Below are positions 168 to 46,220 of a DNA stretch of 64,000 nt, piece by piece. Each line of letters begins with the position of its first letter. Position 1 is the first letter of the stretch. Under the pieces are notes generated by a model. That model worked only from the letters and a program-made list of their open reading frames with translations, was not told the DNA's origin and did no database searches. A program made the position numbers and the translations under genes. Source of the stretch: Siphonodentalium dalli (Eukaryota; Mollusca; Scaphopoda; Gadilida; Siphonodentaliidae); the NCBI GenBank assembly GCA_032622095.1, contig CP136066.1:42173835-42237834 (forward strand). The letters run 5' to 3'.

Positions 168-943
168 TTAACCATTTCTATACTAAATGGACTCTCCCAT
201 TCGGTTATAAAGGTATACATTGGAACGATCTATTATCATTTTGAGGGGTGTTCATGTAATTAAAGCAGACGACATACATACGAAAGAAAAGATAATACAA
301 GTGCAGAAGGATTAATATGTGCATTGGATGGAATATGGTCGTTTGTTAAACTTATAATCTGAACATTCCATAATGGCTACTCGTCAATGAGTATTTAGTA
401 CACCACACTCTTAGAACAAATGTGTATAAATACTACACAATATGTGTTACATTTGATCTTAAACAAAATTGTGTAGAAATGCAACATGACATAAATGTGT
501 CGGTGGAATTTTCTCAACATTGAATATGAGTGAATATCTGAGTATATTATATTTAATAGATGAGATATGTTCTATTTGAGATATAAACCTCGTAAAAGCT
601 GCCATAATAAAAAATTGGCAGCTGCTTTAAAACATTGAGCTACACAATTATGTGTTGTTCAGTATTTACACAAACATAGTGTAAAACAAAGTTTAAAGCT
701 GCTGCCAATTGTTTGTTCTGTGGTAGCCATTACGAGTTTTGTGTCTCCAATAGGACACATTTCATCTAATAACTATGATACACTCACATATTCAATCATA
801 TTCAACATTGATGATATTCCACCGACACATTTAATAATTATATGTCATATGTCATTTCTACACAATTTTGTTTAAGATCAAATGTAACACATTTTGTGTA
901 GTATTTATACACATTTGTTCTAAGAGTGCATGCGTACGGTTAA
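168..943 (-). mobile_element. TTAA-ended MITE, single-unit copy, interrupted
   Basis: The left end is TTAA followed by CCATTTCTATACTAAATGG. The body contains the reverse complement of the conserved segment GAATAATAGACCATTCC/GTCGTCTGC seen in the other family members. Near 352-405 comes one copy of the terminal unit (CTGAACATTCC ... GAGTATTTAGTAC). The expected final TTAA lies at 940-943, beyond an inserted palindromic MITE. TTAA targets with CCCTTT ends are typical of piggyBac-type elements. There is no transposase, so this is a non-autonomous copy. Confidence 0.65.
406..928. mobile_element. Palindromic MITE with CACTCTTAGAAC ends
   Basis: The terminal inverted repeats begin CACTCTTAGAACAAATGTG on the left and mirror it on the right (GTTCTAAGAGTG at 917-928). 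The first 75 bp pair almost perfectly. Inner segments also pair more loosely (about 480-610 with 720-850), so most of the 523-bp element is a long imperfect palindrome. No coding capacity is visible. I could not settle the target duplication, so no superfamily is assigned. Confidence 0.8.
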
Positions 944-1683: not shown

Positions 1684-3404
1684 TTAACCCTGTTTATATT
1701 AAAGCATCATTGATGAGTAGCTATCCCATAGAACATGTTCAGATAATAAGTTTAACCCTCTCTATACTAAAGCATCATTGGTGAGTAGTTATCCCATAGG
1801 AAATGTTCAGATAATAAGTTTAACCATCTCTATACTAAAGCATCAGTGATGAATAGTTATCACAGGAAATGTTCAGATAATAAGTTTAACCCTTTCTATA
1901 GTAAAGCATCATTGGTGAGTAGTTATCCCATAGGAAATGTTCAGATAATAAGTTTAACCTTCTCTATACTAAAGCATCATTGATGGGTAGTTACCCCATA
2001 TGAAATGTTCAGATAATAAGTTTAACCCTTTCTATAGTAAAGCATCATTGGTGAGTAGTTATCCCATAGGAAATGTACCCTTTCTATAGTAAAGCATCAT
2101 TGATGAGTAGTTACCCCATAGGAAATGTTCAGATAATAAGTTTAATCCTTTCTACACTAAAGCATCATTGATGAGTAGTTACCCCATAGGAAATGTTCAG
2201 ATAATAAGTTTAACCCTTTCTATACTAAAGCATCATTGCTAAGTAGTTACCCCGTAGGAAATGTTCAGATAATAAGTTTAATCCTTTCTATACTAAAGCA
2301 TCATTGATGAGTAGTTACCCCATAGGAAATTATCCGATAATAAGTTTATTCTATACTAAAGCGTCATTGGTGAGTAGTTATCCCATAGGAAATGTTCAGA
2401 TAATAAGTTTAAACCTTTCTATACTAAAGCATCATTGATGAGTAGTTACCCCATAGGAAATGTTCAGATAATAAATTTAACCCTTTCTATACTAAAGCAT
2501 CATTGATGAGTAGTTATCCCATAGGAAATGTTCAGATAATAAGTTTAAACCTTTCTATACTAAAGCATCATTGATGAGTAGTTACCCCATAGGAAATGTT
2601 CAGATAATAAATTTAACCCTTTCTATACTAAAGCATCATTGATGAGTAGTTATCACATAGGAAATGTTCAGATAATAAGTTTAAACCTTTCTATACTAAA
2701 GCATCATTGATGAGTAGTTACCCCATAGGAAATGTTCAGATAATAAATTTAACCCTTTCTATACTAAAGCATCATTGATGAGTAGTTATCACATAGGAAA
2801 TGTTCAGATAATAAGTTTAAACCTTTCTATACTAAAGCATCATTGATGAGTAGTCACCCGATGAAATGTTCAGATAATAAGTTTAAACCTTTCTATATTA
2901 AAGCATCATTGATGAGTAGTTATCACATAGGAAATGTTCAGATAATAAGTTTAAACCTTTCTATACTAAAGCATCATTGATGAGTAGTCACCCGATGAAA
3001 TGTTCAGATAATAAGTTTAAACCTTTCTATATTAAAGCATCATTGATGAGTAGTCACCCGATGAAATGTTCAGATAATAAGTTTAAACCTTTCTATACTA
3101 AAGCATCATTGATGAGTAGTCACCCGATGAAATGTTCAGATAATAAGTTTAAACCTTTCTATACTAAAGCATCATTGATGAGTAGTCACCCGATGAAATG
3201 TTCAGATAATAAGTTCAACAGACAGATCGTTTGTTGAACTTATTATCTAAAACAAAATTCCCTCAATAAAAAAGGCTCCTTCTGCACTTCCATTTACATG
3301 TCGTCTGCTTTTATCACCATAACATCCCTCCAAATAAATAATAGACCATTCCGAAGTACACGTTTAACTGACTGGGAGAATCCATTCATTGTAGAAAGGG
3401 TTAA
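1684..3404 (+). mobile_element. TTAA-ended element with a tandem array of its own terminus (array A)
   Basis: The element starts TTAACCCTGTTTATA at 1684 and ends GTAGAAAGGGTTAA at 3404, so both ends read TTAA-CCCTTT inward. From 1684 to about 3215 it is roughly 23 tandem copies of a 66-68-bp unit (CCCTTTCTATACTAAAGCAT, then GATGAGTAGTTA, then AAATGTTCAGATAATAAG). Each unit starts with the TTAA-CCCTTT terminus itself. The array stops at a hairpin (3204-3248), followed by the unique body (CTTCTGCACTTC, GTCGTCTGC, AATAGACCATTCC, CTGGGAGAATCC). Single-unit copies elsewhere in the window show that the unit is normally one end of the element. Confidence 0.8.
3204..3248. repeat. Hairpin closing array A
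   Basis: Arms AGATAATAAGTTCAAC and GTTGAACTTATTATCT enclose about 13 bp. The left arm is the 3' end of the repeat unit, so the array abuts the hairpin stem exactly. The same hairpin occurs at 26293-26337 in a copy without an array. Confidence 0.85.
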
Positions 3405-4178
3405 ATCATTGATGGAATTTATGATGAAACTTGAGGGGTCAGCAGTCGTTTGTTGAGAATTGCTTGTTGAGACTAATTGGCTTAGTTTGTCCATATGTCC
3501 CGGGGAAATATTGAAGTCTGCGTTCAATTATTTGTGGACAGTTTTGATGAGACAATGTCAGGAAGAGACGTTGGACCTTATCTGTCGAGGACAAAAAGAC
3601 GGCAATTAACGCGAGAACTCGAGATTAGTCAAGTAGCAATTAAGGTGGACTCGATTGTTCTTATTGATCTGCTCCGGGCGTGTTAGCTCTGAAAACATTC
3701 GGAGTTAGATAGCAGACGATGGCCTGTCCGGAACCAGATGGCGCTAGTAATTTATTGACCCAGGTGTCCGAATGTAGGGCTGGGTTAGATCCGCGTTCAA
3801 CAGATTGGGTATTCGGGGCCAGAATCCTACGCTATATACTGGGGATCGGGACCACCCGCCTCAGGGACAATCCGACCCAATCGACCCGGCCCAGATAAAA
3901 AAAATGAATAACGTTCTTCAAAACGTTATTCAAAATAAAATATGGGAAACAATAGTAAATTTGTTTTTAATCAGAATGTTTAAAAGGTTAAATCAGCTAG
4001 TAATTTATATGTGTTTTATAATATGAATTTAACTTTTCAAACATTCTATGAAGAAAAAATTGTGAATATGACAAAAAATATTTAATCAAAACATGGGACG
4101 GACATTCGACCCGGGAAATCTGGACAACCTGAACCAAAATACGCCCGTCCATATGGCGAGCGTATGGTCCCACTTCCG
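3405..4178. other. No gene or recognised repeat
   Basis: Only short unsupported open frames are present. A small stem (GAATAACGTT ... AACGTTATTC) lies near 3906-3932. Confidence 0.5.
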
Positions 4179-4186
4179 GCCACTGG

Positions 4187-4431
4187 CAATCCTTGAAATA
4201 GTGCGTCTGTCATTTGCAGAATGAGGTCCCCAGAGGGTGAATTTAGTGATACTACCCCGCATAGTGGGCTAGCATCACCAAATTCACCCTCTGGGAACCT
4301 CAATCTGCTGAGGTGTAAGATCCCCAGAGGGTGAATTTGGTGATGCTAGCCCGCTATGCGGGGTAGCATCACTAAATTCAACCTCTGGGGACCTCATTCT
4401 GCAAATGACAGACACACTATTTCAAGACTTG
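4187..4431. mobile_element. hAT-type MITE, palindromic, 8-bp TSD
   Basis: The ends are CAATCCTTGAAATAG and CTATTTCAAGACTTG. The 8-bp GCCACTGG stands directly on both sides (4179-4186 and 4432-4439). An 8-bp target duplication is the hAT hallmark. The interior is a double palindrome of GAGGTCCCCAGAGGGTGAA and GTGATGCTAGCCCGC blocks. There is no transposase. The perfect TSD suggests a fairly young insertion. Confidence 0.9.
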
Positions 4432-4439
4432 GCCACTGG

Positions 4440-5424
4440 AGTAATCTCCAAACGGTCTGTTCTGTACATTGCTATCTGCATGGAACTAATGCATTGGATG
4501 AGCTATGTATAGTTGTTATGTGAGTTATTGTGCAAACAAGTGAAATGAATATGTGAATTTTACGAACATCTATCACATGGTTGAGGTGTGTTTTATTTTC
4601 CTTTTAAATTTCAGTTATATAAATACGATTTTTAGCGATTACTTAATTTTGTTATGTGAACATGTGTTGTTTTTTTTCAGGAGCATGTATACACGTAAAA
4701 AATAAATAAATAATAATAATCAACATGGATTGGGTACCGTGTTCATTTTGTCCACCCGGACCATCCGCTATCTCAAGTCATCAAGGCACTCAAATCATTG
4801 TGAAGTGTTGATGCGAGCTGTCAAAAGCAAAGGCGATGATTGACTCAAATGCTCTTAATGGCTGCCATTCGTAATGGATCTGAGGAGTGGGCGCGCGACA
4901 GGAATTCCGATCTGATCCCCGGTTATTGAGGCACGCCAATGGCTTTTCAAAGTGAAGTCGATCGCACGGTGTGACCTTCCGACATTTGCCGTTCACACCA
5001 CACTTGGTGAATTGATCGTCGGATATGTCGATTGTTGCGAGATTTTTCGCCATTGTTTCGCACTTTCTTGCTCGGACAAATAGCTGTGCATAATTTCGCT
5101 CGTGTTGCCGTATGGGTTTATGGAAACAAGGGCTGCATTTAGCGAAGTTTGCGGTCAGCTATTGAAGACAAAGGTGATTGTCTTACAGATGTGAGACTTC
5201 AATAATCAGCTACTTGATTGCTGCATCACATTCTTAGTTAATTGGGGTCTTCTGTTTCTTGCAACTTATGCTGACACAGATCATTAACCTTCTGAATACT
5301 ACAAGAAATAAGTTGAATACACCTGAACACAATTTTAATATCAATAGCTTGCGGCCATTCTTGATAGTGGCCCTTTTCAAGACTGTATGAAGCGTTGACG
5401 TGACCATAACGCGCGATAATGTCA
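4440..5424. other. No gene seen; AT-rich stretch
   Basis: The segment 4655-4680 looks like a splice acceptor (T-rich run then CAG), but stops follow in every frame, and an AAT-rich run lies at 4702-4721. No repeat family recognised. Confidence 0.45.
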
Positions 5425-5590
5425 ACTTTTTGCTTAAATAACAGGTTTTGGGCAAATTTATACTATAGTTGACTGTGGTTTAGCATTATTTTTGGACAAT
5501 TAATCGATCCTTATAACTGAAGCGGCATTTCAAAAAAAATTGTTGTTCTTGTTGGAATCTGATGATATGGGCACCATCGAATCTGATTCA
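5425..5590 (-). repeat. Dispersed repeat, copy 1
   Basis: On the minus strand this reads ATGCCGCTTCAGTTA ... ATCGATTAATTGTCCAAAA ... CAACTATAGTATAAA. It matches the plus strand at about 46073-46220 with scattered differences. The frame open in the 46-kb copy is closed here, which argues against a protein. Confidence 0.65.
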
Positions 5591-5840
5591 GTAGCTTTAA
5601 GCAAAGTCTTATTTGTATATCATGTATTTTTCGAACTATTTCAATCGCTATGATCATAGGTTTATATCTTGAGGCTTTAGCATTTTGTTGGCCCCTATAT
5701 AACCTTATATAAACTAATACATAAGATGGCATTCAAATGCCTCGAGTTTGTCTAGACACCAGGCATGCAGTGAGTGAGTTGCACCAAATTATCAAGTAAT
5801 CCGTGGGATACACATGCTACTTGTTACTAAACCAATCGAG

Positions 5841-6240
5841 TTAACCCTTTACCCAACAAACCGGCCAAAACCGGCCAAATAAAGCTTCAACAGCCTAAAA
5901 TATCTTCGGTCTGTCTCAATAGAACCATACAAATATGGATATCATTGGAACCGGCTCCTTGACCACATTGTGATAGTTACAGTTATGCCCTGTGCCAATG
6001 CATTCTCTTATATATGCGAGTCGACCATAGGTCGCCTCGCATATATAAGAGAATGCATTGGCCTAAAAAAAATCTTTTTTTAACACTTTTTACCATTTTT
6101 TCTTACATTCTTTAACAATTTTATAATTTTTAATGTGTTAAGCCAATGCATTCTCTTATATATACGAGGCGACCTATGGTCGACTCGCATATATAAGAGA
6201 ATGCATTGGCACAGGGCCCTTCTGTTGGGTAAAGGGTTCA
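5841..6240. mobile_element. TTAA-CCCTTT MITE with paired hairpin core
   Basis: The left end is TTAACCCTTTACCCAACA. The right end is GTTGGGTAAAGGGTTCA, with the last TTAA drifted to TTCA. Each half carries a 66-bp hairpin (GCCAATGCATTCTCTTATAT, loop near GACCATAGGTC), and the two hairpins are inverted copies of each other around a T-rich centre. TTAA plus CCCTTT fits a piggyBac-type MITE. The core recurs near 9510, 15890, 28680, 30710, 33550 and 51830 with other ends. Confidence 0.8.
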
Positions 6241-6740
6241 CCGCTGAGCGACTATACCACCATTATAAAGTTAGAACGTTTCATGCGATGACTTATGGGC
6301 CGCCGATAAGATCATTATAATGGGGACTATAATCCGGACCATCGAGAATTATTTATGCAAATTTAAAGTGGATTGCTGTGTTATGACCAAATGCATATCA
6401 TATACGTACATTAGATCCTTCGTACCTGCTACATCGAACAGTTACCAAACAGCTATTTATCTCGAATTCAAAATCTTCAACTGCGGGCGGTCCTATGGTA
6501 AACACCGATTGACGCGATTAAGTGGGCGAATTGGGCTGGATAAATCAAAAATTTAAATGCTTATTAATTGAAAGTAATCTAGTTATATGCGTTTTACCTG
6601 AGCGTTCCTTTGAAGTGCCGAGGGCGTTCAGTTACTCGGGCATGATTGTATATTGTTATAGATGCCCTGGTTCAGGGGGGATACATTGTGATGTGTCGCA
6701 CCACCCACTAACAGTATGATCATAAGACAATTTTTATCAC
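6241..6740. other. No gene or clear repeat
   Basis: Short overlapping open frames only, with no recognisable domains or splice framework. Confidence 0.45.
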
Positions 6741-7140
6741 ACAACACCGAATATTCGGACAATTCGAAGTTTGGTGTTAGGGGGCCTATGTTGGGGTTGT
6801 CCAACTTTAAATTTCCAACTGCGTACCCACATTGAACCAGACAAAATTCCCATGTTCGCAATATTCCATGTGCACCCCTTTTGAGTTGGAACTTTTCAAC
6901 TGGGACGACCTCAACTTCCTCAAGCTTTCAACTGTTGGAAAATCTCGAACTGGTGGCCGTTTCAGACCAAATTTTTGACAAATATAAAATTATGCTGCCG
7001 TTGGTCCGAGGACAACAAATTCCCCACTAATTACTGGTTGGTAAATCAAACAATAAGAAAAATTTCAATTATAGGTGGTGAACTCATGTTGTGTCAAGCA
7101 TGAAATTTCCAACTGTTGAACATTTTGAACAAAGTTGGTG
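6741..7140. repeat. Dispersed repeat rich in TTTCCAAC motifs
   Basis: Several copies of AAATTTCCAACTG-like words occur. The stretch 7030-7140 (GTTGTGTCAAGCATGAAAT, CCAACTGTTGAA) resembles segments at 26460-26610 and 51600-51710. The boundaries are unclear and no coding is visible. Confidence 0.5.
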
Positions 7141-7234
7141 GGTGAGACAGAATCCTTCTGCACTTGTATTATCTATATTATCGTCTGCTTATTTTCCTGA
7201 AAAACCCTCCAGATGAATAATAGACCATTCCACT

Positions 7235-7814
7235 GTATACTCACGGTGAGGAGTCACGTGGTTTCGATTTGATGAGAATCACGCATTCAAAATGGCAGAG
7301 GCGATCGAAAAAGCGACCAGAAAGGAGGAAAAAGGTAATAAACTATATAGGACATTGATAAATTGCATAGTATTTTGTCAGCAACGAGAAGATAGCATTT
7401 GCTCGTTGCTGACCAAATACTATGTAATATATCAATGTCCAGATGCTATACTATTTTTCAAACAAGTTGATACATAAGTTGTGTCAAATTCGCAGTTGTT
7501 TGCTCTAGCACTCTCACCAAAGGTGTCAGTCGAAGGATTCATCGAGATGTATATATGGACTGGTGTATTCCACTAAACTCCTACAAGCAACTTCGGTCAG
7601 AATGTTATATAGAAAACCACGGAGTATTTTCGAACAAATAAGGTATCAACTTGTTTTAAAAATAAACCAGCATATGCTCGTAACAGTAAAAACGCTATAT
7701 GTTTTATGTCAGTTTCTCGCATATTATGTTATTTGTGCGTGTGCACCAGCCTCGGCCATTGTGTATGCGTGGTACTCACCAACCTCGAAACCACGCGATT
7801 CCCCACCGTGATAC
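7235..7814. mobile_element. TIR element nested in the TTAA MITE
   Basis: The imperfect terminal inverted repeats are GTATACTCACGGTGAGGAG/CACGTGGTTTCG on the left and CGAAACCACGCG/CACCGTGATAC on the right, about 35 bp each. The interruption of the host repeat fits these ends. No transposase is recognised and the target duplication is unclear. Confidence 0.65.
7350..7440. repeat. 91-bp foldback inside the nested element
   Basis: Arms GGACATTGATAAATTGCATA and the mirrored TATCAATGTCC pair over about 38 bp around a short loop. It may be a third-level insertion or part of the host element. Confidence 0.75.
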
Positions 7815-7859
7815 TTCTAAAACCCAGTGGGAGAATCCATTTAGTGTGGAAGGGGTTAA

Positions 7860-8265
7860 GAAACCCAACAAGGGACGGATTGATAGATATTTTTTAACCA
7901 AACGTGAACATTAAACGGTGTTATGGACAAATGTAGATTGTTACAGAAACAAATGGCATTTATATATAACAGCAAGAAAGCGCATCGCCTGTTTGTGCCA
8001 AATAGAACTGATGTTCCAGGTACATTATCTGTTATCAAGGATCGGTACAAGAGACGACTTGATAGTTTTTTACCAATGGAACACGAAACGATAGTAAAAC
8101 AAAACGAAGTTGTCATCTTCCGCCAAAAGAATGCAGTCCAACTGTTCGCGCCAATGTCTTTTATAACCTCGGCTATACGATCATAGATCGCGGGAACATT
8201 AGCCCGTTGTTAAAGGCTCGTGCTCATAAGTTAGGATTGATCCAGACTTCCCAGACTACGCCTGC
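7860..8265. other. No gene recognised
   Basis: Open frames of 60-90 codons overlap on both strands at 7856-8186. None shows a known motif, and overlap on both strands argues against coding. Confidence 0.4.
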
Positions 8266-8269
8266 GTAT

Positions 8270-8675
8270 AGAGTGCCCGTCATTTGCAGAATGGGGTTCC
8301 CAGAGGGTGAATTTAATGATGCTAGCCCGCTATTCTGCTTAGGCCTCATCTTCTCTGGAAAAGTTTCTTTATTATCAAATTTCTATAGAAACTTCTTCAC
8401 ATATATAGATTATATTTCTTAAATTAGTTTAGTTTTTCTAAATCCCCAAAATTTGCAGAAGACAGTCGAGGTTCCCAATGGGTGTACATCACAATATTCA
8501 CCATTTGGGAACTTCAATCTGAGTATATGTCTAAAATAGCAGATGAGGCCATGCAGAATGAGGTCACCAGATGGCGAATTTGGTGATGCTAGCCCGCTAT
8601 GTGGGATAGCATAACTAAATTCACCATCTGGGGACATAATTCTGCACATGACAGGCACACTAAACTCAGACTTGA
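8270..8675. mobile_element. Degraded hAT-type MITE copy
   Basis: The left part has GTCATTTGCAGAATGGGGTT and GTTCCCAGAGGGTGAATTT. The right part has GATGCTAGCCCGC and CATCTGGGGACATAATTCTG, then CATGACAGGCACACT. The same blocks form the element at 4187-4431. The middle (about 8340-8560) is diverged or contains extra sequence with a weaker second palindrome (GAGGTTCCCAATGGGTG / CACCATTTGGGAAC). The ends have decayed and I could not read a TSD. Confidence 0.65.
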
Positions 8676-9466
8676 CACTCACCCCATGCAGTAAGCGTAT
8701 CGGGTAATAACGGGGTGATCGGATCTGTCCATACAAGACAATCACCAGCGAATATAGTTAACTGTCAAGAAATCTCTCTCATACATATCAACCATGATAT
8801 ATAGTTTCAAATTTATTTAAACAAACGATAATACCCAAATCATATCAACCAGACGCGAATTGATCCAGTCTATGTGTCTCTTTTTTATCAGTCTCAGCGA
8901 ACCTGCATGGGTGTCTTGTTTATCAGTTTTAGGAATCTCGATTACATTATACCCAACGCCATGGGGTAACGACCAATTCAAATATACTAGTATATAAATA
9001 ACTATACCGAGTAGTATATCACATCCTAAATATATTTTTAAACGTATTGATATGACTTGGACGATAGGTTAACATCGAAAGATATTCCGTTAACATTAAT
9101 ATTCTGCCCTATAACATTCAACGGGGTTATCCAATATTCGCACTTTTTCTATACCGTAAACCGGACATCATTCTATTGGCCAAATATGTCATTATTCGCA
9201 GAGCTCTACACATGCATGGCTGTCACCGGCATATATCTTACTGAACCAAAGGATACATACCAATTACATCATTTTAAAACAGACAACTTTCGCATAATGA
9301 ACTACTAGTAATGAGAATTAGTTCTTCGTCACTTAGTCTATAATTTGTGTTCTTTCTATCAGTTGTCCTTCTGGCCATATCCGTAGTTACAAATGACAAG
9401 CATTGTCACGTGACCTTTGCATGCAGTCATCGAACCAACAACTGATATGACCTGATAAAAACATTG
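8676..9466. other. No gene or recognised repeat
   Basis: AT-rich sequence with one unsupported 83-codon frame at 9057-9308. Confidence 0.45.
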
Positions 9467-9655
9467 TTAACCCTTTCATGACTGGAGCTTCCTGAATTTT
9501 TTGCGAAAACCCTGTGCCAATGCATTCTCTTATATATGCGAGTCGCCCATAGGGCGCCTCGCATATATAAGAGAATGCATTGGCCCTAACAATATTTACC
9601 TTAATTTTGTAAGCTAGTGCATTCTCTTATATATGCGAGGCTCCCTATGTGTTAT
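9467..9655. mobile_element. Left part of a TTAA-CCCTTT hairpin-core MITE
   Basis: It begins TTAACCCTTTCATGACTGG at 9467 and then GAGCTTCC, matching the right end of the element at 30622-31118. One complete hairpin with loop GCCCATAGGGC follows. A second hairpin begins near 9610 but is lost, so the element is 3'-truncated around 9655. Confidence 0.7.
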
Positions 9656-9912
9656 CATGAATTAGTCAGAGCACTAGACTATTAAAACTTCTAAATGTTT
9701 TTATAGGAGAGTTTTGTAAATGGCTAAGATACCTTTCGATGCCCTTACCACTGAACAAAAATATATCTGTGTCTACAGTCCAATACAAAGTTCGGGTGTG
9801 CACCTTTTTCTTGGGTGGGTAGGGAAACCCTAAACACAGGTATTTTATATGGCCTAAGTTATTGTAGGTGTTATGTGAAGATTTTCTGTCTCCGGGATTT
9901 ATGTTTATTCAT
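9656..9912. other. No gene or repeat seen
   Basis: Short unique-looking spacer before array B. Confidence 0.4.
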
Positions 9913-11996
9913 CCCAACCCTGTTTATACTAAACCATCATAGTTGAGTAGTTATCCCATATAAGAAATGTTCACATAATAAGTTTAACCCTGTGCATACT
10001 AAAACGTCATTGATGAGTAGTTATCTCATAGGAAATGTTCACATAATAAGTTTAACCCTTTTTTATACTAAAACGTAATTGATGAGTGGTTATCCCATTG
10101 GAAATGTTCACATAATCAGTTTAACCCTTTTTATGCTAAAACGTCATTGGTGAGTAGTTATCCCATAACAAATGTACACATAATAAGTTTAACAATTTTT
10201 ATACTAAACGGCATTGATGATTAGTTATCCCATAGGAAATGTTCACATAATAAGTTTAACCCTTTTTTATAATAAAACGTAATTGATGAATAGTTATCCC
10301 ATAGGAAATGTTCACATAATAGGTTTAACCCTTTTTATACTAAAACGTCATTGTTGAGTAGTTATCCCATAGGACATGTTCACATAATAAATTTAACCCT
10401 TTTGTACTAAAAGATCATTGATGAGTAGTTATCCCATATATGAAATGTTCACATAATAAGTTTAATCCTTTTTATACTATAATGTCATTAATATTTAGCT
10501 ATCCCATAGGAAATGTTCAGATAATAAATTTAACATTTGTTATACTAAAACGTCACAGCATTGATGAGTAGTTATCCCATGGAAATGTTCAGATAATAAG
10601 TTTAACCCTTCTTATACTAAAACATCACTGATGAGTAGTTTTCCCATAGGAAATGTTCAGATAATAAGTTTAACCTGTTTTATACTAAAGCATCATTGAT
10701 GAGTAGTTATCCCATATGAAGTACTCAGATAATAAGTGTAACCCTTTTTATACTAAAACATCACTGATGAGCAGTTATCCCGTATAGGAAATGTTCACAT
10801 AATAAGTTTAACCCTTTTTATACGAAACGTCATTGATGAGTAGTTATCACACATGAAATATTCACACAATAAGTTTAACCACTGTTATACTAAAACGTCA
10901 CAGCATTGATGAGTAGTTATCCCATAGGAAATGTTCAGATAATAAGTTTAACCCTTCTTATACTAAAACATCACTGATGAGTAGTTTTCCCATAGGAAAT
11001 GTTCAGATAATAAGTTTACCCTGTTTTATACTAAAACATCATTGATGAGTAGCTATCTCATAGGAAATGTTCAGATAATAAGTTTAACCCTTTTTGTACT
11101 AAAACATCATTGATGAGTTTCTATCCCATAGGAAATGTTCACATAATAAGTTTAGCCCTTTTTATACTAAAACATAATTGATGAGTAGTTATCCCGTATA
11201 GGAAATGTTCAGATAATAAGTTTAACAATTTTTTACGAAAACATAATTGATGAGTAGTTATCCCATAGGAAATGTTCAGATAATAAGTTTAACCCTTTGT
11301 AACTAAAACGTCATTGATGAATAGTTATCCATAGGGATGTTCAGATAATAAGTTTATCCCTTTTTATACTAAAACATAATTGATGAGTAGTTATTCCATA
11401 GGAAAAGTTCAGATAATAAGTTTAACCCTTCTTATACTAAAACATCACTGATGAGTAGTTTTCCCATAGGAAATGTTCAGATAATAAGTTTAACCTGTTT
11501 TATACTAAAACATCATTGATGAGTAGCTATCTCATAGGAAATGTTCAGATAATAAGTTTAACCCTTTTTGTACTAAAACATCATTGATGAGTTTCTATCC
11601 CATAGGAAATGTTCACATAATAAGTTTATCCCTTTTTTATACTAAAACTACATTGATGAGTAGTTATTTCATAGGAAATGTTCATATAATAAGATTAACC
11701 CTGTTTATACTAAAAGATCATTGATAAGTAGTTATCCCATAGGAATTTTTCAGATAAGTTTATACCGTTTTATACTAAAACGTCATTGACGAGTAGTTAT
11801 CCCATATAGGAAATGTTCAGATAATATGTAGGTCGTTTGTAAACATTTCCCTTAATAAATATGACTCCTTCTGCGATTCTATTTATCTGTCGTCTGCTTA
11901 TATTACATGTACGTCCCTGCAAATCCATAATAGACCATTCCTATGTACACTTTTTAACTGACAGTGAGAATCCATTTAGTATAGGATATGTGTTAA
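9913..11996 (+). mobile_element. TTAA-ended element with terminal-unit array (array B)
   Basis: About 28 units of 65-70 bp run from 9913 to about 11825, followed by the unique body (TCCTTCTGCGATT, GTCGTCTGCTTA, AATAGACCATTCC, GAGAATCCATTTAG) and a final TTAA at 11993-11996. Units differ from those in array A (TTTTTATACTAAAACGTCATT versus TTTCTATACTAAAGCATCA), so each array has homogenised separately. The hairpin before the body is mostly lost. A multi-unit block beginning CCCTTCTTATACTAAAACA recurs near 10604, 10951 and 11424. Confidence 0.8.
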
Positions 11997-14272: not shown

Positions 14273-14550
14273 TTAACCCTTTCTATAATTAAGCATCATT
14301 TATGAGTAGTTATATATCCCATCGGAAATATTCAGATAATAAGTTTAACTCTTTCTATACTAAAGCATCATTGATTAGCAGCTATCCCATAGGAAATGTT
14401 CAAGATATTAAGTTCAAAAAACGTGTAACTTATTATCTAAACATTTCCCGAAATTGTTATCACCTTAATTATATCCTTCCAAATCAATAATCATTCCTAT
14501 GTACACTGCTTAACTGACTGGGAGAATCCACTTGGTATATACATGGTTAA
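14273..14550 (+). mobile_element. TTAA-ended MITE with two terminal units
   Basis: TTAACCCTTTCTATAATTAAG starts at 14273 and GGTTAA ends at 14550. Two terminal units precede the family body (ATTATCTAAACATTTCCC, AATCATTCCTATGTACAC, CTGACTGGGAGAATCC). It is a small version of arrays A and B and fits an early stage of unit duplication or a contracted array. Confidence 0.75.
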
Positions 14551-22445: not shown

Positions 22446-22815
22446 ATCAAGATGTATGAGACCTAAACTCAAGGTGTATGAGACCTAAACTCAAGGTGTA
22501 TGAGACCTAAACTCAAGGTGTATGAGACCTAAACTCAAGGTGTATGAGACATAAACTCAAGGTGTATGAGACCTAAACTCAAGGTGTATGAGACCTAAAC
22601 TCAAGGTGTATGAGACCTAACTCAAGGTGTATGAGACCTAAACTCAAGGTGTATGAGACCTAAACTCAAGGTGTATGAGACCTAAACTCAAGGTGTATGA
22701 GACCTAAACTCAAGATGTATGAGACCTAAACTCGTCAAAATATATCAAGGTGTATGAGACCTAAACTCGTCAAAATATATCAAGATGTATGAAACCTAAA
22801 CTCGTCAAAATATAT
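22446..22815 (+). repeat. 22-bp minisatellite grading into 35-bp units
   Basis: The unit GTATGAGACCTAAACTCAAG (20 of its 22 bp) is repeated about 13 times and is nearly identical throughout. The last three units are lengthened by GTCAAAATATATCA. The homogeneity suggests recent expansion. Confidence 0.9.
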
Positions 22816-22894
22816 CAATTTGGCTGAGAAATAATAAATATTTAACAAGGTGGTGCCATAAAGGCTGCGTACCAGGCTGGTTGTTGAATCCTGA

Positions 22895-23461
22895 ATACAG
22901 GTTAATTGGGCATATGAATCCGGAGCATGAATCCTGAATACAGGTTAATTGGACATATGAATCCCGAGTACCAGATATGAATCCTGAATACAGGTTAATT
23001 GGGCATATAAATTCCGAGTATGAATCCTGAATACAGGTTAATTGGGCATATGAATCCCTAGTATGAATCCTGAATACAGGTTAATTGGGCATATGAATCC
23101 CGAGTATGAATCCTGAATACAGATTGATTGGGCATATGAATCCCGAGTATGAACCCTGAATACAGGTTAATTGGGCATATGAATCCCGAGTATGAACCCT
23201 GAATACATGTTAATTGGGCATATGAATCCCGAGTATGAACCCTGAATACATGTTAATTGGGCATATGAATCCCGAGTATGAATCCTGAATACAGGTTAAT
23301 TGGGCATATGAATCCCGAGTATGAATCCTGAATACAGGTTAATTGGGCATATGAATCCCGAATACCATAGTATGAATCCTGAATACAGGTTAATTGGGCA
23401 TATGAATCCCGAGTATGAATCCTGAATACAGGTTAATTGGACATATGAATCCCGAATACCA
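22895..23461 (+). repeat. 43-bp minisatellite, first block
   Basis: The unit pairs two half-repeats, ATGAATCCTGAATACAGG and ATGAATCCCGAGT, joined by TTAATTGGGCAT. About 13 units are present, some lengthened by ACCATAGT. The block ends at the hairpin module that begins near 23462. Confidence 0.88.
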
Positions 23462-23660
23462 TAGTATATTTACATACACCTGATATCTCTTCCGATTTCC
23501 CCATAGCGTTACGATAGACACGCCCCCTTATTCAATGCGTTCATAAACCTATGAACGTAACGTGACGTCACTTTCAATGTCGTTCATAGGTTTATGAACA
23601 CATTGGTCCCGGAAATCACCGGGGATTGTCGGACATTACCGACAGCTTGAGTATCTAGTC
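23462..23660. repeat. Hairpin module H2, copy 1
   Basis: Arms at 23533-23556 and 23582-23605 (GTTCATAAACCTATGAAC, itself a palindrome) flank CGTGACGTCA. The module TTTACATACACCTGATAT ... GTCGGACATTACCGAC recurs at 24887-25078 with few differences. Confidence 0.85.
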
Positions 23661-24062
23661 AGCCAATACGCCAAGGATTTGATAGCAAACAATGTGTAAT
23701 CGGGGTTCACGATTGGATGGCTAGTGGCATCTAATCGCGAGCACGGGTGGCACGATATGTTCGATTGACTATCAGAATGTTGTTATCATATAATCCCATA
23801 TCCCATAATATGTCAAATATAGCGAATTATCGAAATATGAAATACAACGAAAAAGCGATATATGAAAATACAGCGAAATAGCACGAAAAATCGAAATAGG
23901 AAAATACAGCGAAATAGGGCGAAATATAGAGCGAAATATAGAAATAGGAAATTATTTTTATAAACGAAATAACGGAGATATTTGAAAAAGTGTTTTTGAC
24001 GAAATAACGGACATATTTGGAGAAGTGTTTTAAAGAGCGTAAGTATATAAATATAAATAATA
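23661..24062. repeat. Linker with GAAATA-rich degenerate repeats
   Basis: The stretch 23815-24035 is made of CGAAATA, GCGAAATAG and CGAAATATAGA words. It differs from the corresponding linker at 25079-25558, so only the hairpins and minisatellite are shared between modules. Confidence 0.6.
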
Positions 24063-24200
24063 AACGGCGGATTCAACGTGGTCATGGGTTTTGACCGCGA
24101 TAAAAAATCAGCAAACTCCGCATGAACCCCTTCGGGGTTCATGCAGTTTGCTGAATTTTTCTCGCGGTCAAAATCCCATGACCACATTGAAACCGCCGTT
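24063..24200. repeat. Hairpin module H1, copy 1
   Basis: A 138-bp near-perfect palindrome has AACGGCGG ... CCGCCGTT ends, TTTTGACCGCG/CGCGGTCAAAA stems and a GAACCCCTTCGGGGTTC apex. It is immediately followed by the minisatellite. Frames reading through it are palindrome artefacts. Confidence 0.9.
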
Positions 24201-24207
24201 CATTTCT

Positions 24208-24886
24208 TATATGAATCCTGAATACAGATTGATTGGGCATATGAATCCCGAGTATGAATCCTGAATACAGGTTAATTGGACATATGAATCCAGAGTATGA
24301 ATCCTGAATACAGGTTAATTGGGCATATGAATCCCTAATACCATAGTATGAATCCTGAATACAGATTGATTGGGCATATGAATCCCGAGTATGAACCCTG
24401 AATACATGTTAATTGGGCATATGAATCCCGAGTATGAATCCTGAATACAGGTTAATTGGGAATATGAATCCCGAGCATGAATCCTGAATACAGGTTAATT
24501 GGGCATATGAATCCCGAGTACCATAGTATGAATCCTGAATACAGGTTAAATGGGCATATGAATCCTGAGTACCAGAGTATGAATCCTGTATACAGGTTAA
24601 TTTGGCATATGAATCCCGAGTACCAGGGTATGAATCCTGAATACAGGTTAAATGGGCATATGAATCCCGATTACCAGAGCATGGATCCTGAATACAGGTT
24701 AAATGGGCATATGAATCCAGAGTACCAGGGTATGAATCCTGAATACAGGTCAATTAGGCATATGAATCCAGAGTACCAGGGTATGAATCCTGAATACAGG
24801 TCAATTAGGCATATGAATCCCGGGTACCAGGGTATGAATCCTGAATACAGGTTAAATTGGCATATGAATCCCGAGTACCAGGGTAT
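24208..24886 (+). repeat. 43/51-bp minisatellite, second block
   Basis: It starts with 43-bp units and shifts from about 24480 to 51-bp units that add ACCAGGGT. Because 51 is a multiple of three, the later units keep one frame open (about 140 codons, repeating MNPEYRLNGHMNPEYQG). There is no gene context and the frame is stopped at once outside the array. Confidence 0.88.
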
Positions 24887-25078
24887 ATTTACATACACCT
24901 AATATCTCCTCCGATTTCCCCATTGCGTTACGGTAGACACGCCCCCGTATTCAATGCGTTCATAAACCTATGAACGCAACGTGACGTCACTTCCAATGTC
25001 GTTCATAGGTTTATGAACACATTGGTCCCGGAAATGACCGGGGATTGTCGGACATTGCCGACTGCTTGAGTATCTATA
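24887..25078. repeat. Hairpin module H2, copy 2
   Basis: Arms lie at 24952-24975 and 25001-25024. The whole module is close to the copy at 23462-23660, including the CGTGACGTCACTT centre and GGGGATTGTCGGACATT. Confidence 0.85.
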
Positions 25079-25559
25079 TACTACGTCGGGATTTGGCAAG
25101 AATTTTTTTTTGGTCTATAATCATTGTTGTTGCCCGGTGTTACTGAACGTTGATGTTCAAAAATCCCGCTACTTAATAACGTTTTATCATATTCCTTACC
25201 GCTACAAATATCCCCCGAACCTCACAAATATATCATTATGGTAGAACGGCGTGTTGTCGATTTCTTATCCACAGCCGAAACTTAATTGTTAGTTTCAGTT
25301 ATCATTCTTGAAATCAACACGTCTACATTAGTTATTAGCTAAACAAGACAGTTTGTCATATGAGTATACTGAACTGTGAAATTGCGTTTTTTTTTCCGTT
25401 CTTCAAGAACGGATTCTCAAAATGTTTGGTTTTCCAAAAAACGAGGATTCGCACTTTCTGAACTGAACTCCGTGCGTTCATTTAAATAGATGAATAAATA
25501 GTGGGAAAGACAGACAATCCTAGTTCATAGTGAATTTAAGTATATAAATATAAATAATA
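25079..25559. other. Linker without recognised gene
   Basis: Contains a 17-bp palindrome CCGTTCTTCAAGAACGG at 25396-25412. No coding seen. Confidence 0.45.
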
Positions 25560-25698
25560 AACGGCGGATTCAACGTGGTCATGGGTTTTGACCGCGATAA
25601 AAAAATCAGCAAACTCCGCATGAACCCCTTCGGGGTTCATGCAGTTTGCTGATTTTTTCTCGCGGTCAAAATCCCATGACCACATTGAAACCGCCGTT
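25560..25698. repeat. Hairpin module H1, copy 2
   Basis: Nearly identical to 24063-24200 and likewise followed directly by the minisatellite. The preceding AAGTATATAAATATAAATAA is also shared. Confidence 0.9.
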
Positions 25699-25707
25699 TA
25701 TTTCTTA

Positions 25708-25870
25708 TATGAATCCTGAATACAGGTTAAATGGGCATATGAATCCCGAGTACCAGGGTATGAATCCTGAATACAGGTTAAATGGGCATATGAATCCCGA
25801 TTACCAGAGCATGGATCCTGAATACAGGTTAAATGGGCATATGCATCCCGAGTACCAGAGTATGAATCCT
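25708..25870 (+). repeat. 51-bp minisatellite, third block
   Basis: Three 51-bp units (MNPEYRLNGHMNPEYQG in one frame), then a degenerate half unit. Unit variants such as ATTACCAGAGCATGGATCC are shared in the same order with 24655-24700, which points to block duplication rather than independent growth. Confidence 0.85.
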
Positions 25871-26123
25871 GCGTACCCGTCTTCAAAATCACCCGAATCC
25901 CACGTACCAACAGGTGAGGGGGTGACACTTCATAATTGGGGACGCTCTTTATTATTTACTGAATTTGGGTAAACGCTCTTTGTTATAGAGACGATAATCG
26001 ACGATCGTTCATTGTTGGTCCATTCTATTCTTGATATGGTTTGAACAAAGAGAATTTGTCTCACTTCTGGGCGAAAATTGAAAATAATTGAAAATTACTA
26101 TGGTGTCAGGTGTCCTGTCCCAT

Positions 26124-26385
26124 TTAACCCTTTCAAAAATTAAATGAATTCTCCCATTCAGTTTATAAGAGAATACATGGGAATGGTCTATTATTCATTT
26201 GAAGGGGTGTTCAGTGTAAATTAGCTGACGGCATCCCAACGAAAAAATATTTCAAGTGCTGAATCATTCATATTCATTGGTGGGAAATGTTTAGATAATA
26301 AGTTCATCTTTGTTGAACTTATTATCTGAACATTTCCTATGGAACTACTCGACAATGAGTAATTAGTAATATTTATTCGGCTTCT
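26124..26385 (-). mobile_element. TTAA-ended MITE, single unit, with intact hairpin
   Basis: It begins TTAACCCTTTC at 26124, then GAATTCTCCCATTCAG, GGAATGGTCTATTATTC, and the hairpin at 26293-26337 (AGATAATAAGTTCA/TGAACTTATTATCT). One reversed terminal unit ends near GAGTAATTAGTA. The outer TTAA on the right is lost. Confidence 0.75.
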
Positions 26386-26628: not shown

Positions 26629-26841
26629 CAGTAATGCCCAAAGTAATTGACCACTTAACCACAGCAGAATTATGGGTAATTTTTCAGGATTTAGTCGGAA
26701 ATATGGCTTGTTGCCATTCATCGGAAAGCTCTCGATGAGAGCTTTCCGATGAATGGCAACAAGCCATATTTCCGACTAAATCCTGAAAAATTACCCATAA
26801 TTCTGCTGTGGTTAAGTGGTCAATTACTTTGGGCATTACTG
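26629..26841. mobile_element. Mariner-type palindromic MITE, TA target
   Basis: It starts CAGTAATGCCCAAAGTAATT and ends with the exact mirror GGGCATTACTG, flanked by TA at 26627-26628 and 26842-26843. The 213-bp element is essentially a perfect inverted repeat around a few bases near 26736. TA duplication plus CAGT ends is the Tc1/mariner signature. The perfect arms imply a recent insertion or recent origin. Confidence 0.9.
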
Positions 26842-27277
26842 TACGTCCCTGTATTTTAAGGGGTTAATATAGTCTAGTCTTACAATTATGTGTTAATTTG
26901 TAGATCATATATGATAACAAGGATACAATGTGGTAATTCAATCTTTATTTGCAAAACCTGTATTGGACAACCCATTATTTGACCGGCGTTATTACCATGA
27001 GCATGTTAAGTCAATGAGAAATATTGCTGTGCGTGTCTGGAATATCCATCTAGAATCGGCGGGTCTCAACACAGGCAGCTCCAGACTGCGATCGCATAGA
27101 AGGAGGACAAAAGATTGTCTGGGTCTTTTAGATTTTAACATTGTCATCTATATCAGATGAGACATAGAAAGTCGACATTAAATCAATGTTCATAGTGAAA
27201 GAGAACGATGGAAACTTTCTGCGCGTAAAGAAAGTTCTTTTTTATATACTTTAGGGCGTGTATTGATCTTGCTAGGT
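26842..27277. other. No gene recognised
   Basis: A 76-codon frame at 26930-27160 has no recognisable family. Nothing else is seen. Confidence 0.4.
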
Positions 27278-28582
27278 TTAACTCTTTCTATACTAAAGCA
27301 TCGTTGCTGAGTAGTTATCCCATAGGAAATGTTCAGATAATAAGTTAACTCCTTTTTATACTAAAGCATCATTGCTGAGTAGTTATCCCATAGGAAATGT
27401 TCAGATAATAAGTTAACCCCGTTATATACTAAAGCATCATTGGTGAGTAGTTATCCCATAGGAAATGTTCAGATAATAAGTTAACCCCTTTTTATACTAA
27501 AGCCTCATTGCTGAGTAGTTATCACATAGGAAATGTTCAGATAATAAGTTTAACCCTTTTAATACGGGAACATCATTGACGAGTAGTTATCCGATAGGAA
27601 ATATTCAGATAATAAGTTTAACCCTTTTTATACTAAAACATCATTGATGAGTAGTTATCACATATGACATGTTCAGATAATAAGTTTAACCCTTTTTATA
27701 CTAAAGCATAATTGCTGAGTATAGTTATCCCAAAGGAAATGTTCAGATAATAAGTTTAACCCTTGTTTATACTGAAGCATTATTGATGAGTAGTTATCAC
27801 TTAGAAAATGTTCAGATAATAAGTTTAACCATTTTTATACTAAAGCATAATTGCTGAGTATAGTTATCCGAAAGGAAATGTTCAGATAATAAGTTTAACC
27901 CTTGTTTATACTAAAGCATCATTGATGAGTAGTTATCACATAGGAAATATTCAGATAATTAGTTTAACCATTTTTATACTGAAACATCATTGACGAGTAG
28001 TTATCCGATAGGAAATGTTCAGATAATAACCCTTTCTGTACTAAAGCATCATTGATGAGTAGTTATCCCATAGGAAATGTTCAGATTATAAGTTTAACCC
28101 TTGTTTATACTAAAGCATTATTGATGAGTAGTTATCACTTAGAAAATGTTCAGATAATAAGTTTAACCATTTTTATACTAAAGCATCATTGATGAGTAGT
28201 TATCCCACATAGGAAATGTTCAGATAATAAGTTTAACCCTTTTTATACTAAAACACCATTGATGAGTAGTTATCACATAGACATGTTCAGATAATAAGTT
28301 TAACCCTTTCTATACTAAAGCATCATTGATGAGTAGTTATCACAAAGGAAATTTTCAGATAATAAGTTTAACCCTTTCTATACTAGAGCATCATTGATGA
28401 GTAGTTATCACAAAGGAAATGTTCAGATAATAAGTTTAACCCTCTCTTTACTAAAGCATCATTGATGAGTAGTTATCACAAAGGAAATGTTCAGATAATA
28501 AGTTTAACCCTTTCTATACTAAAGCATCATTGATGAGTAGTTATCACATGGGAAATGTTCAGATAATAAGTTCAACAAACAA
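27278..28582 (+). mobile_element. TTAA-ended terminal-unit array (array D), truncated
   Basis: About 19 units of about 67 bp begin at TTAACTCTTTCTATA. The last unit runs into AATAAGTTCAACAAAC, the left arm of the family hairpin, and stops there: the right arm and the unique body are missing. Early units show GTTAACCCC junctions and late units CACAAAGGAAAT variants, so subfamilies are spread along the array. Confidence 0.8.
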
Positions 28583-28625
28583 CCAGGAAAATTACTATGC
28601 TCGCATTAAAGATTTCCTGCCCAAA

Positions 28626-31634: not shown

Positions 31635-31728
31635 TTAACCCTTTTTGTATGGTCGTTTGTTGAACTAATTATTTGAACATTTCTTCAGGGAAATGATCAT
31701 CAATGAGTATTTAGTATAGAAAGGTTAA
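31635..31728 (-). mobile_element. Minimal 94-bp TTAA-ended copy
   Basis: TTAACCCTTTTTGTATGG, then GTCGTTTGTTGAAC (right hairpin arm), one reversed terminal unit, and AGTATAGAAAGGTTAA. Both TTAA ends are present. It is essentially the hairpin arm plus one terminal unit. Confidence 0.75.
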
Positions 31729-36666: not shown

Positions 36667-36969
36667 TCGGCCGTTTGTTGAACTTACATTAATGCCCTAG
36701 TTAATCGACTCCTTTAACCAGAGCAGAATTATGGGTAACTTTTCAGGATTTAGTCGGAAATATGGCTTGTTGCCATTCATCGGAAAGCTCTACCCGAGAG
36801 CTTTTCGATGAATGGCAACAAGCCATATTTCCGACTAAATCCTGAAAAGTTACCCATAATTCTGCTGTGGTTAAAGGAGTCGATTAATTAGGACATTACT
36901 GTGTATCTGAACATTTCCTGAGGAGCTTCTCGTAACTCGTCAATGAGTATTTAGTACAGAAAGGATTAA
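36667..36969 (-). mobile_element. TTAA-ended MITE copy split by a mariner-type palindrome
   Basis: CGGCCGTTTGTTGAACTTA (right hairpin arm) at 36667, interrupted at 36687-36901, continues TCTGAACATTTCCTGAGGAG ... GTATTTAGTACAGAAAGG and ends TTAA at 36966-36969. The uninterrupted equivalent is at 45966-46052. Confidence 0.8.
36687..36901. mobile_element. Mariner-type palindromic MITE, nested
   Basis: It shares the interior of the element at 26629-26841 (ACCAGAGCAGAATTATGGG, TTTAGTCGGAAATATGGC), but its ends read CATTAATGCCCTAGTTAATC and GGACATTACTG, so it belongs to a variant subfamily. It is inserted at a TA in the hairpin arm of the TTAA element. The copy is about 215 bp with near-perfect arms. 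Confidence 0.85.
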
Positions 36970-37204: not shown

Positions 37205-38586
37205 TGTTCGCATGTTTGTTCTATATTGTTTCATGCAGTGGCGTAACATGTGTGCACTATATTGTACTATAACATGTGTGTACTATATTCATCCAGTGGC
37301 GTAACATGTGTGTACTATATTGTTGTTAGCATGTTTGTACTACATTGTTTCATGCAGCGGAGTAACATGTTTGTACTATATTGCTGTTCGCATGTTTGTA
37401 CTATATTGTTTACATACAGTGGCGTAACATGTTTGTACTATTTTGCTGTTAGCATCTATGTACTATATTGTAGTTCGCATGTTTGTACTATATTGCTGTT
37501 CGCATGTTTGTACTATACTGTTGTTCGCATGTTTGTACTATATTGCTGTTCGCATCTTTTTACTTTATTGCTGTTCGCATCTTTGTACTATATTGTTGTT
37601 AGCATGTTTGTACTATATTGTAGTTCGCATGTTTGTACTATATTGCTGTTCGCATCTTTGTACTATATTGTTGTTCCCATGTTTGTACTATATTGCTGTT
37701 CGCATCTTTGTACTATATTGTAGTTCTCATCTTTGTACTATAATGCTGTTCGCATCTTTGTACTATATTGTTGTTCGCATGTTTGTACTATATTACTGTT
37801 CGCATCTTTGTACTATATTGTTGTTCGCATGGTTGTACTATATTGCTGTTCGCATCTTTTTACAACATTGTTATTCGCATCTTTGTACTATATTGCTGTT
37901 CGCATGTTTGTACTAAATTGTTCGCATCTTTTTACAATATTGTTATTCGCATCTTTGTACTATATTGTTGTTCGCATGTTTGTACTATATTGTTGTTCGC
38001 ATCTTTGTACTATATTTTGTTCGCATCTTTGTACTATATTGCTGTTCGCATGTTTGTACTATATTGTTGTTCGCATCTTTGTACAATATTGTTATTCGCA
38101 TCTTTGTGCTATATTGCTGTTCGCATCTTTGTACTATATTGTTGTTCGCATCTTTGTACTATATTGCTGTTCGCATCTTTGTACTATATTGCTGTTCGCA
38201 TCTTTGTACTATATTGTTGTTCGCATCTTTTTACTTTATTGCTGTTCGCATCTTTGTACTATATTGTTATTCGCATCTTTGTACTATATTGCTGTTCGCA
38301 TGTTTGTACTATATTGTTGTTCGCATCTTTTTACAATATTGTTATTAGCATCTTTGTACTATATTATTGTTCGCATGTTTGTACTATATTGTTGTTCGCA
38401 TCTTTGTACTATATTTTGTTCACATGTTTGTACTATATTGCTGTTCGCATGTGTGTACAATATTGTTGTTCGCATCTTTTTACAATATTGTTATTCGCAT
38501 CTTTGTACTATATTGCTGTTCGCATCTTTGTACTATATTGTTGTTCGCATCTTTGTACTATATTGTTGTTCGCATCTTTGTGTGTA
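37205..38586 (+). repeat. 25-bp minisatellite, about 50 units
   Basis: The unit is TTTGTACTATATTGTTGTTC then GCATC. The first 230 bp has longer mixed units with TCATGCAGTGGCGTAACATG. The rest is regular with T/C, G/C variants. Because 25 is not a multiple of three, each plus frame reads the same 25-residue cycle. No unit variant makes a stop, so frames of up to 292 codons run in all three plus frames. I regard these as non-coding. Confidence 0.92.
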
Positions 38587-44959: not shown

Positions 44960-45900
44960 TGCTCAGGATTCCGACTATATATCGTGCGTTGATTCCAACC
45001 CTATATATATCGTGCCCCGGATTCCGACTGTATATATATCGTGCCCCGGATTCCGACTGTATATATATATATCACACGCCAGATTCCAAATGTATCGCAC
45101 ACCAGATTGCGACTATATCACACACCGGATTCCGACTACATATCGCGCGCCGGTTTCCGACTGTATCGCATGCTGGATTCCATGCATCTGTATCGCATAC
45201 CAGATTCCGAATGTATCGCAAACCGGATTCCGAATGTATCGCACGCCGGATTCCAAATGTATCGCACGCCGGATTCCGACTGTACCACACGCCGGATTCC
45301 GACTGTACCGCACGCCGGATTCCGACTGTATTTCACGCCGGATTCCGACTGTATATCGCACGCCGGATTCCGACTGTATCGCACGCCGGATTCCGACTGT
45401 ATTTCACGCCGGATTCCGACTGTATATCGCACGCCGGATTCCGACTGTATCGCACGCCTGATTCCGACTGTATTTCACGCCGGATTCCGACTGTATATCG
45501 CACGCCGGATTCCGACTGTACCGCACGCCGGATACCGACTGTGTCGCACGCCGGATTCCGACTGTATTTCACGCCGTATTCCGACTGTATATCGCACGCC
45601 GGATTCCGACTGTATCGCACGCCGGATTCTGTCTGTATCGCATGCCGGATTCCGAATGTATTTCAAACCGGATTCCGTCTGTATATCGCATGCTGGATTC
45701 CGTCTGTATCGCACGCCGGATTCCGACTGTATCGCACGCCGGATTCCGGTACCGCACATCAGGACTGTAAGGCATGCTAGATTCCGACTGCATGTATCAC
45801 AAGCCAGATTCTAACTCTACATCGTGCCCCGGACGTCTACTGTATAGCTCACCGGATTCCGACTCTATCGTGTCCCGGATTCCGACTATATCGCAAAATA
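44960..45900 (+). repeat. 23-bp minisatellite, about 38 units
   Basis: The unit is ACGCCGGATTCCGACTGTAT plus CGC, with 25-bp variants that add AT and TTTC variants. It is more GC-rich than its neighbours. As 23 is not a multiple of three, all plus frames cycle through the same peptide (ARRIPTVSHAGFRLYRTPDS). Several minus frames are open too. Units get more diverged towards both ends. Confidence 0.92.
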
Positions 45901-45965: not shown

Positions 45966-46052
45966 ATCGGCCGTTTGTTGAACTTATATCTGAACATTTC
46001 CTGAGGGAACTTCTCGTAACTCGTCAATGAGTATTTAGTAAAGAAAGGATTA
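45966..46052 (-). mobile_element. Short TTAA-ended copy (hairpin arm plus one unit)
   Basis: CGGCCGTTTGTTGAACTTAT, then CTGAACATTTCCTGAGGGAA ... GTATTTAGTAAAGAAAGGATTAA. It is flanked by ATTAAAGGTGCTCAAT on the left and ATTAAAGGTACTCAAT on the right, so the host repeat was locally duplicated. Confidence 0.75.
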
Positions 46053-46220
46053 AAGGTACTCAATCCGATTCGATGGTCCCACTTTAATCAGATTCCAACA
46101 ACAACAACATTTTTATAAATGCCGCTTCAGTTACCAGAATCGATTAATTGCCCAAAAATAATACTAACCACTGTCAACTATAGTATAAAATTGCCCGAAA
46201 CGTGTTATTTATCAACACGT
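46053..46220 (+). repeat. Dispersed repeat, copy 2 of the 5425-5590 family
   Basis: ATTCGATGGTCCCACTTTAA, AATGCCGCTTCAGTTACC, CAACTATAGTATAAAATTGCC. Continuous with the repeat that follows. Confidence 0.65.

Follow-up and report, generated by a model that had tools for sequence, protein, structure and literature searches.

What becomes of a transposon whose own end turns into the unit of a tandem array? The question is raised by a 64,000-nucleotide stretch of the genome of the scaphopod mollusc Siphonodentalium dalli (contig CP136066.1, positions 42,173,835 to 42,237,834 of the forward strand; this whole stretch is called the window below). It holds arrays of a 68-bp unit, TTAACCCTTTCTATACTAAAGCATCATTGATGAGTAGTTATCCCATAGGAAATGTTCAGATAATAAGT, which is the left terminal segment of a short transposon together with its TTAA target. 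The explanation that we favor, with a probability of about 0.7, is that these copies belong to a high-copy, non-coding, TTAA-specific family of miniature inverted-repeat transposable elements (MITEs) of the piggyBac type, in which local duplication of the left end gave rise to arrays that then grew in place.

Array periods in the window were obtained with Tandem Repeats Finder and unit counts by BLAST with the unit. A period of 68 was found at 1684-2076, 2079-3215, 9916-11826, and 27276-28576, and 23, 28, and 19 units were counted in elements A and B and in array D, respectively (Table 1). The terminal segment of a transposon, including the TTAA, had already been proposed as the repeat unit in an earlier, sequence-only reading of the window. 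This is borne out, as A, B, and D each repeat the leftmost 68 bp of the element in tandem and the single-unit copies share the same plan. The limits given there for element A, 1684-3404, also hold, with TTAA at 1684-1687 and at 3401-3404. B, which had been placed at 9913-11996, starts at 9916; its left TTAA is lost (it reads CCCAACCC) and its right end is worn, GTATAGGATATGTGTTAA. The single opposite-facing end ascribed to each array is well kept in A, worn in B, and absent from D, which breaks off shortly past its final unit, at TTCAACAAACAACC. A alone keeps a good right end in the window: its final unit continues into AAGTTCAACA...TGTTGAACTTATTATC, a short inverted repeat, followed by the tail with terminal GTAGAAAGGGTTAA. 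A fourth array copy, element C, was missing from the earlier list. No transposase-like open reading frame was seen in the window.

A normal copy of the family begins with TTAA and a 68-bp left end, continues through a short hairpin centre and a tail of about 150 bp, and closes with a right end and TTAA. Relatives were fetched with the last 14 unit bases and the tail of A, and 40 of 3,580 candidates were scored, so the resulting counts are lower bounds. Besides A, 19 tail loci were read, 17 of them independent by their flanks (L024 and L028 were dropped as duplicates of L017 and L027). A single unit, whole or partial, forms the left end in 11 of these 17 loci and several units do so in six, in a set that was chosen by likeness to A's tail rather than at random and leans toward A-like copies. 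The multi-unit loci hold 3 (L013), 3 (L016), 17 (L019), 4 (L020), 5 (L021), and about 18 units (L026, which also holds a stretch of two inverted units); elements with 3-5 units are roughly 390-520 bp long. In the tail loci, a lone unit serves as the left end; if its tip survives, it meets the flank at TTAA. Single-unit copies share both the plan and the right end of array-bearing copies. The single copies that had been listed as the normal state represent it in part, but those at 36667-36969 and 45966-46053 stop at the central loop, without the right half.

Is the outer edge of an array a real transposon end? TTAA was present on both edges of all six multi-unit elements that were cut out (A, L008, L013, L016, L019, and L021). 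Empty sites were sought with the joined flanks of five of these (A, L013, L016, L019, and L021; 40 of 67 candidates scored), L008 being left out because another family copy lies within its flanks. Only the flank pair of the five-unit L021 lies in a repeat, and all 33 non-self matches were to it; in 31 of them (71-86% identity) the sequence runs on through the TTAA and the element is absent. As these unfilled sites read across the TTAA of L021, the array edge there is a true transposon end, and the outer array edge is supported, in this one case, as a real terminus. Termini lying outside the arrays, which had been named as the finding that would undo the terminal-segment idea, were not seen among these elements; the 31 empty sites fall at the TTAA of one multi-unit element. 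The same data bear on the proposal that the arrays are an older satellite captured by the transposon, with the likeness to its end being secondary. Arrays without a tail do exist (D and L005), but the single unit as left end in most independent tail loci, and the empty sites of the five-unit element falling exactly at the outer unit edge, make this hardly credible.

The family shows two traits of piggyBac elements. Its TTAA target is duplicated, with TTAA at both element edges and one TTAA at the L021 empty sites. Its ends carry the piggyBac hallmark, a CC[C/T]T terminal motif with a terminal inverted repeat of 12-19 bp (PMC2872659): the left end reads CCCTTTCTATACTAAA and the right end, reversed, starts with CCCTTTCTATACTAAAT, for example in L013, L016, and L026. 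The copies are short and non-coding, have terminal inverted repeats and occur in high number, as MITEs do. Helitrons and HINE elements insert without target-site duplication and carry their repeats internally, and Helentrons use a different transposition chemistry; here, by contrast with the former, TTAA lies on both sides and terminal repeats are present. Kolobok T2-MITEs also target TTAA but have AGGRR ends (PMC6004289), whereas the ends of this family are CCCTTT.

Possible transposase partners were searched for with PF13843 (DDE_Tnp_1_7), which gave 649 candidates and 128 matches corresponding to about 116 scored loci; 40 loci were read with flanks of 1.5-2 kb. Other TTAA-CCCTTT ends were encountered among them (TTAACCCTTTATCTG, TTAACCCTTTAGC, and others), and in none of these 40 did a transposon end starting with TTAACCCTTTCTATACTAAA occur as the transposase element's own end. 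L037 and L048 hold single-unit family copies beside a transposase, and these were read as separate insertions. Many of the roughly 116 loci have open frames of 500-720 codons and several form near-identical groups, which suggests that piggyBac families in this genome have recently been active.

At the scale of the 2.23-Gb genome, the array junction AGATAATAAGTTTAACCCTTTC has 7,928 exact matches, the shorter junction AGATAATAAGTTAACCCTTTC 444, the right end CCATTTAGTATAGAAAGGGTTAA 2,537, and the centre AATGTTCAGATAATAAGTTCAACA 11,949, although a copy may count twice in the last figure if both arms match. The reversed control gave 0 for each of the four sequences, and the array pattern is not due to chance, given 7,928 exact junctions against none. 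Of the 8,698 left ends with the intact core TTAACCCTTTCTATACTAAANNNTCATTG, 4,882 follow AAGT and therefore sit within arrays, a count that covers the AAGT form of the junction only. Array matches were found on all nine contigs (40 of 3,091 candidates scored). Within the first 13.08 Mb of contig C1, the 100 exact junctions listed fall into 19 clusters spanning about 2 to about 77 units. The shorter junction, AAG/TTAA, is concentrated: 78 of the 100 places listed lie in 5 of 17 clusters. The two junction types, AAGT/TTAA and AAG/TTAA, are no proof of separate origins, as the loss of one T gives the same result. At C1:6425479-6426486, positions alone reveal ten intact TTCTCA-type left ends spaced about 50, 99, or 149-192 bases apart, perhaps an array with a different unit length and a second origin.

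How do the arrays change? Two loci 0.46 Mb apart, L069 and L070, have both flanks in common (95.7 and 96.7% identity, over alignments of about 1.4-1.5 kb that take in part of the array) and hold 8 and 13 units, respectively. Distances and conservation were computed on 282 units of 24 elements, with units with incomplete ends and loci L010, L018, and L023 excluded. Judged by mean distance, units were closer to their own array in 14 of 17 arrays; judged by nearest neighbor, this held for 16 of the 17. Repeat number varying between copies of one locus and local homogenization are both features of emerging satellites. Block patterns are also present: in A, distance is lower at a lag of two units than at a lag of one (0.047 vs. 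0.067), and in L006 TACTCA-type and GCATCA-type units are mixed in repeated blocks. One cluster is satellite-like, about 19 kb at C1:84570691-84589643, with a pattern that, judged from positions only, recurs at a shift of 7,846 bp. With such higher-order patterns and with arrays lacking a right end, the suggestion of satellite birth made in the sequence-only reading is supported.

Such large arrays with long repeated patterns would also be expected if excised elements or circles were copied by rolling circle and reinserted as concatemers, a route that has been proposed for satellites derived from transposable elements (review PMC12628747). However, if whole elements had been concatenated, tail and right end should recur too, and only the left 68 bp repeats in the arrays read; arrays of few units (2 to 5) and the pair with 8 and 13 units fit stepwise change. 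Extrachromosomal amplification is therefore unlikely.

It was also proposed that the arrays act as a platform for repeated mobilization, in which transposase would pair the single right end with any internal left end, giving daughters of varied unit number and leaving upstream units behind. Every junction does consist of TTAA plus the terminal motif, and the spread of unit numbers is wide. The figure of 20-28 same-facing potential ends per array is nevertheless an upper one, since a minority of the complete units scored keep a perfect TTAACCCTTT (5 of 21 in A, where two incomplete units of the 23 were left unscored, 6 of 28 in B, and 7 of 19 in D). Overall, TTAACCCTTT is perfect in 145 of 257 internal units, but the other 10-base windows tried were perfect in 111 to 200 of 257, and the internal end motif is thus not specially conserved. 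Excision through an internal end should leave a scar consisting of unit, TTAA, and flank. There are 189 exact matches of this kind. Of 20 sampled, 16 proved to be ordinary family copies whose centre has changed, and in one (L091) an arm from the tail side adjoins other sequence; the other three (L080, L085, and L086) are candidates, with no comparison to breakpoints elsewhere in the unit. L085 adjoins sequence that resembles, by eye, the TTAA element of L074 described below. Among four of the first six scar-like loci, L073, an array without a tail that terminates at TTAA, is a further candidate, and L069 and L070 are changed junctions within arrays. These few arrays or single units stopping exactly at TTAA beside other sequence are what a platform would leave. 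On the other hand, a third left-end binding site reduces the activity of piggyBat (PMC11707139), so that extra ends need not raise jumping. With end motifs not specially kept and few candidate scars, a mobilization platform is very unlikely, and we infer no regular use of the internal ends.

Unit-boundary TTAAs do serve as targets for other TTAA elements. In L074 (downstream of the array boundary at about 1523), another TTAA element with ends AGGTACTCAACCCG lies, by eye, in a unit-boundary TTAA, and a unit resumes beyond it. A AGGTACTC sequence similar to this inserted element flanks the single copy at 45966-46053 of the window. By analogy with the extra left-end site in piggyBat, one may speculate further: most intact copies of one end lie in arrays, each full array would gather many transposase sites that face the same way against a single opposing end, and such arrays might sequester or mis-pair transposase and damp the family, or occasionally release shorter elements via an internal end. 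We regard this as rather unlikely.

The favored explanation, local duplication of the left end followed by growth in place, may be pictured as follows. In many copies the left end, including TTAA and terminal inverted repeat, has been duplicated in tandem. The first step may have been slippage, or repair from the wrong template, involving two almost identical words spaced 68 bp from each other, terminal TTAAC and central GTTCAAC; the array junction reads AAGT/TTAAC and the centre AAGT/TCAAC. The later steps are visible in the sequence: unit number shifts in place, units become alike locally, multi-unit blocks are copied, and some arrays have no right end and persist as satellite-like DNA. The outer edge stays a true transposon end, and the internal ends are most likely passive by-products, although their TTAAs can be targets for other TTAA elements. 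The elements themselves are presumably mobilized in the piggyBac manner. Several points weigh against this explanation. The flanks of A, L013, L016, and L019 are unique and matched only themselves, and empty sites are known for one multi-unit element; in L016, L021, and L074 units are no closer to their own array when mean distance is used; and the 40 transposase loci read, of about 116 scored, included no autonomous piggyBac partner with these ends. In addition, the first duplication step is deduced from the likeness of two words, and arrays may also transpose whole.

Parts of this process have been described in other animals. The earlier statement that no TTAA-type element is known to amplify its own terminal inverted repeat needs a qualifier: coral CMITEs, short non-coding elements of the piggyBac type with TTAA duplications and CC[C/T]T ends, form tandem arrays, which their authors attribute to replication slippage (PMC2872659). 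In CMITEs, however, which have a conserved internal region of 75 bases in common, the whole element of about 100 bp is repeated, whereas here only the left 68 bp is, within an element with a single right end. In Tetris/TIR-220 of Drosophila virilis, tandem repeats within the terminal repeats grew into satellite arrays, and two alleles have three and four repeats; but Tetris is a foldback element with target duplications of 8-10 bp, and its repeats lie behind an outer flanking domain inside the terminal repeats rather than at the extreme end together with the target site (PMC4079207). Xmix/Xstir of Xenopus is a TTAA-targeting MITE with self-derived tandem repeats, but the amplified segment is internal (PMC6004289, PMC12628747); it has been placed with Kolobok (AGGRR ends) and not piggyBac (PMC6004289), and listed as a piggyBac MITE elsewhere (PMC2872659). 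Also in Xenopus, the MITE miDNA4 carries one or many repeat copies, with short direct repeats proposed as the trigger, but is of the Tc1/mariner type and has an internal repeat (PMC12628747). The oyster CgHINE Helentrons are likewise non-autonomous and scatter short satellite-like arrays, but their repeats are central (PMC9659126). More generally, a review notes that tandem monomers often derive from terminal inverted repeats (PMC9659126). No description of arrays of one end with its TTAA was found in the full-text literature searched, which leaves out most subscription journals, so absence is not shown. The present case is a new twist on a known process: arrays of whole MITEs, of parts of terminal repeats, and of internal segments are known, and here the repeated segment is one end plus its TTAA.

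Table 1. Copies of the family in the window and the parts of element A.
Feature	Positions	Strand	Description
Element A	1684..3404	+	23 left-end units followed by hairpin centre, tail, and right end; each edge has TTAA
Array of 68-bp left-end units in A	1684..3214	+	higher-order period of two units
Hairpin centre of A	3205..3247	+	short inverted repeat after the final unit; read directly
Right end of A, GTAGAAAGGGTTAA	3391..3404	+	sole opposite-facing end in A
Element B	9916..11996	+	28 units up to 11829, followed by tail; no left TTAA left, worn right end
Element C	14273..14550	+	two units (14273-14413), tail to 14550, worn right end GTATATACATGGTTAA
Array D	27278..28584	+	19 units up to 28571, then beginning of centre; no tail, no right end
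Single-unit relative	168..402	-	left tip missing
Single-unit relative	26124..26385	-	right end, tail, centre, partial left end
Short relative	31635..31728	-	TTAA at both edges, most of tail missing
Left end only	36667..36969	-	ends at loop; another palindromic repeat nested inside
Left end only	45966..46053	-	ends at loop

Other features of the window were recorded alongside. A tail fragment at 7114-7240 and a right end at 7821-7859, with about 580 bases between them, belong to one relative (7114-7860), which an insertion seems to have divided. A near-perfect palindromic repeat (CAGAATTATGGGTAA...GCTTTCCGATGAATGGCAAC plus its reverse) occurs at 26640-26845 and 36700-36885, one of the two lying inside a family copy. 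Unrelated tandem arrays are present at 22447-25871, 37205-38581, 45068-45748, and 49413-49915, with units of 22, 43/51, 25, 23, and 34 bp. Reverse transcriptase pieces (PF00078, E 2e-7 and 8e-11) on the minus strand at 57324-58518 are probably an old LINE (long interspersed nuclear element)-like element.

Taken as a whole, the family gives the impression of a transposon on its way to becoming satellite DNA, in which a functional transposon end, including the target site, becomes the monomer of a satellite-like repeat. Stages running from a single unit to about 19 kb of array occur within one genome, and this natural series could be used to test how MITEs give rise to satellites and whether additional ends promote or impede a cut-and-paste transposase. 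If the arrays did sequester transposase, the family would limit itself through its own ends.

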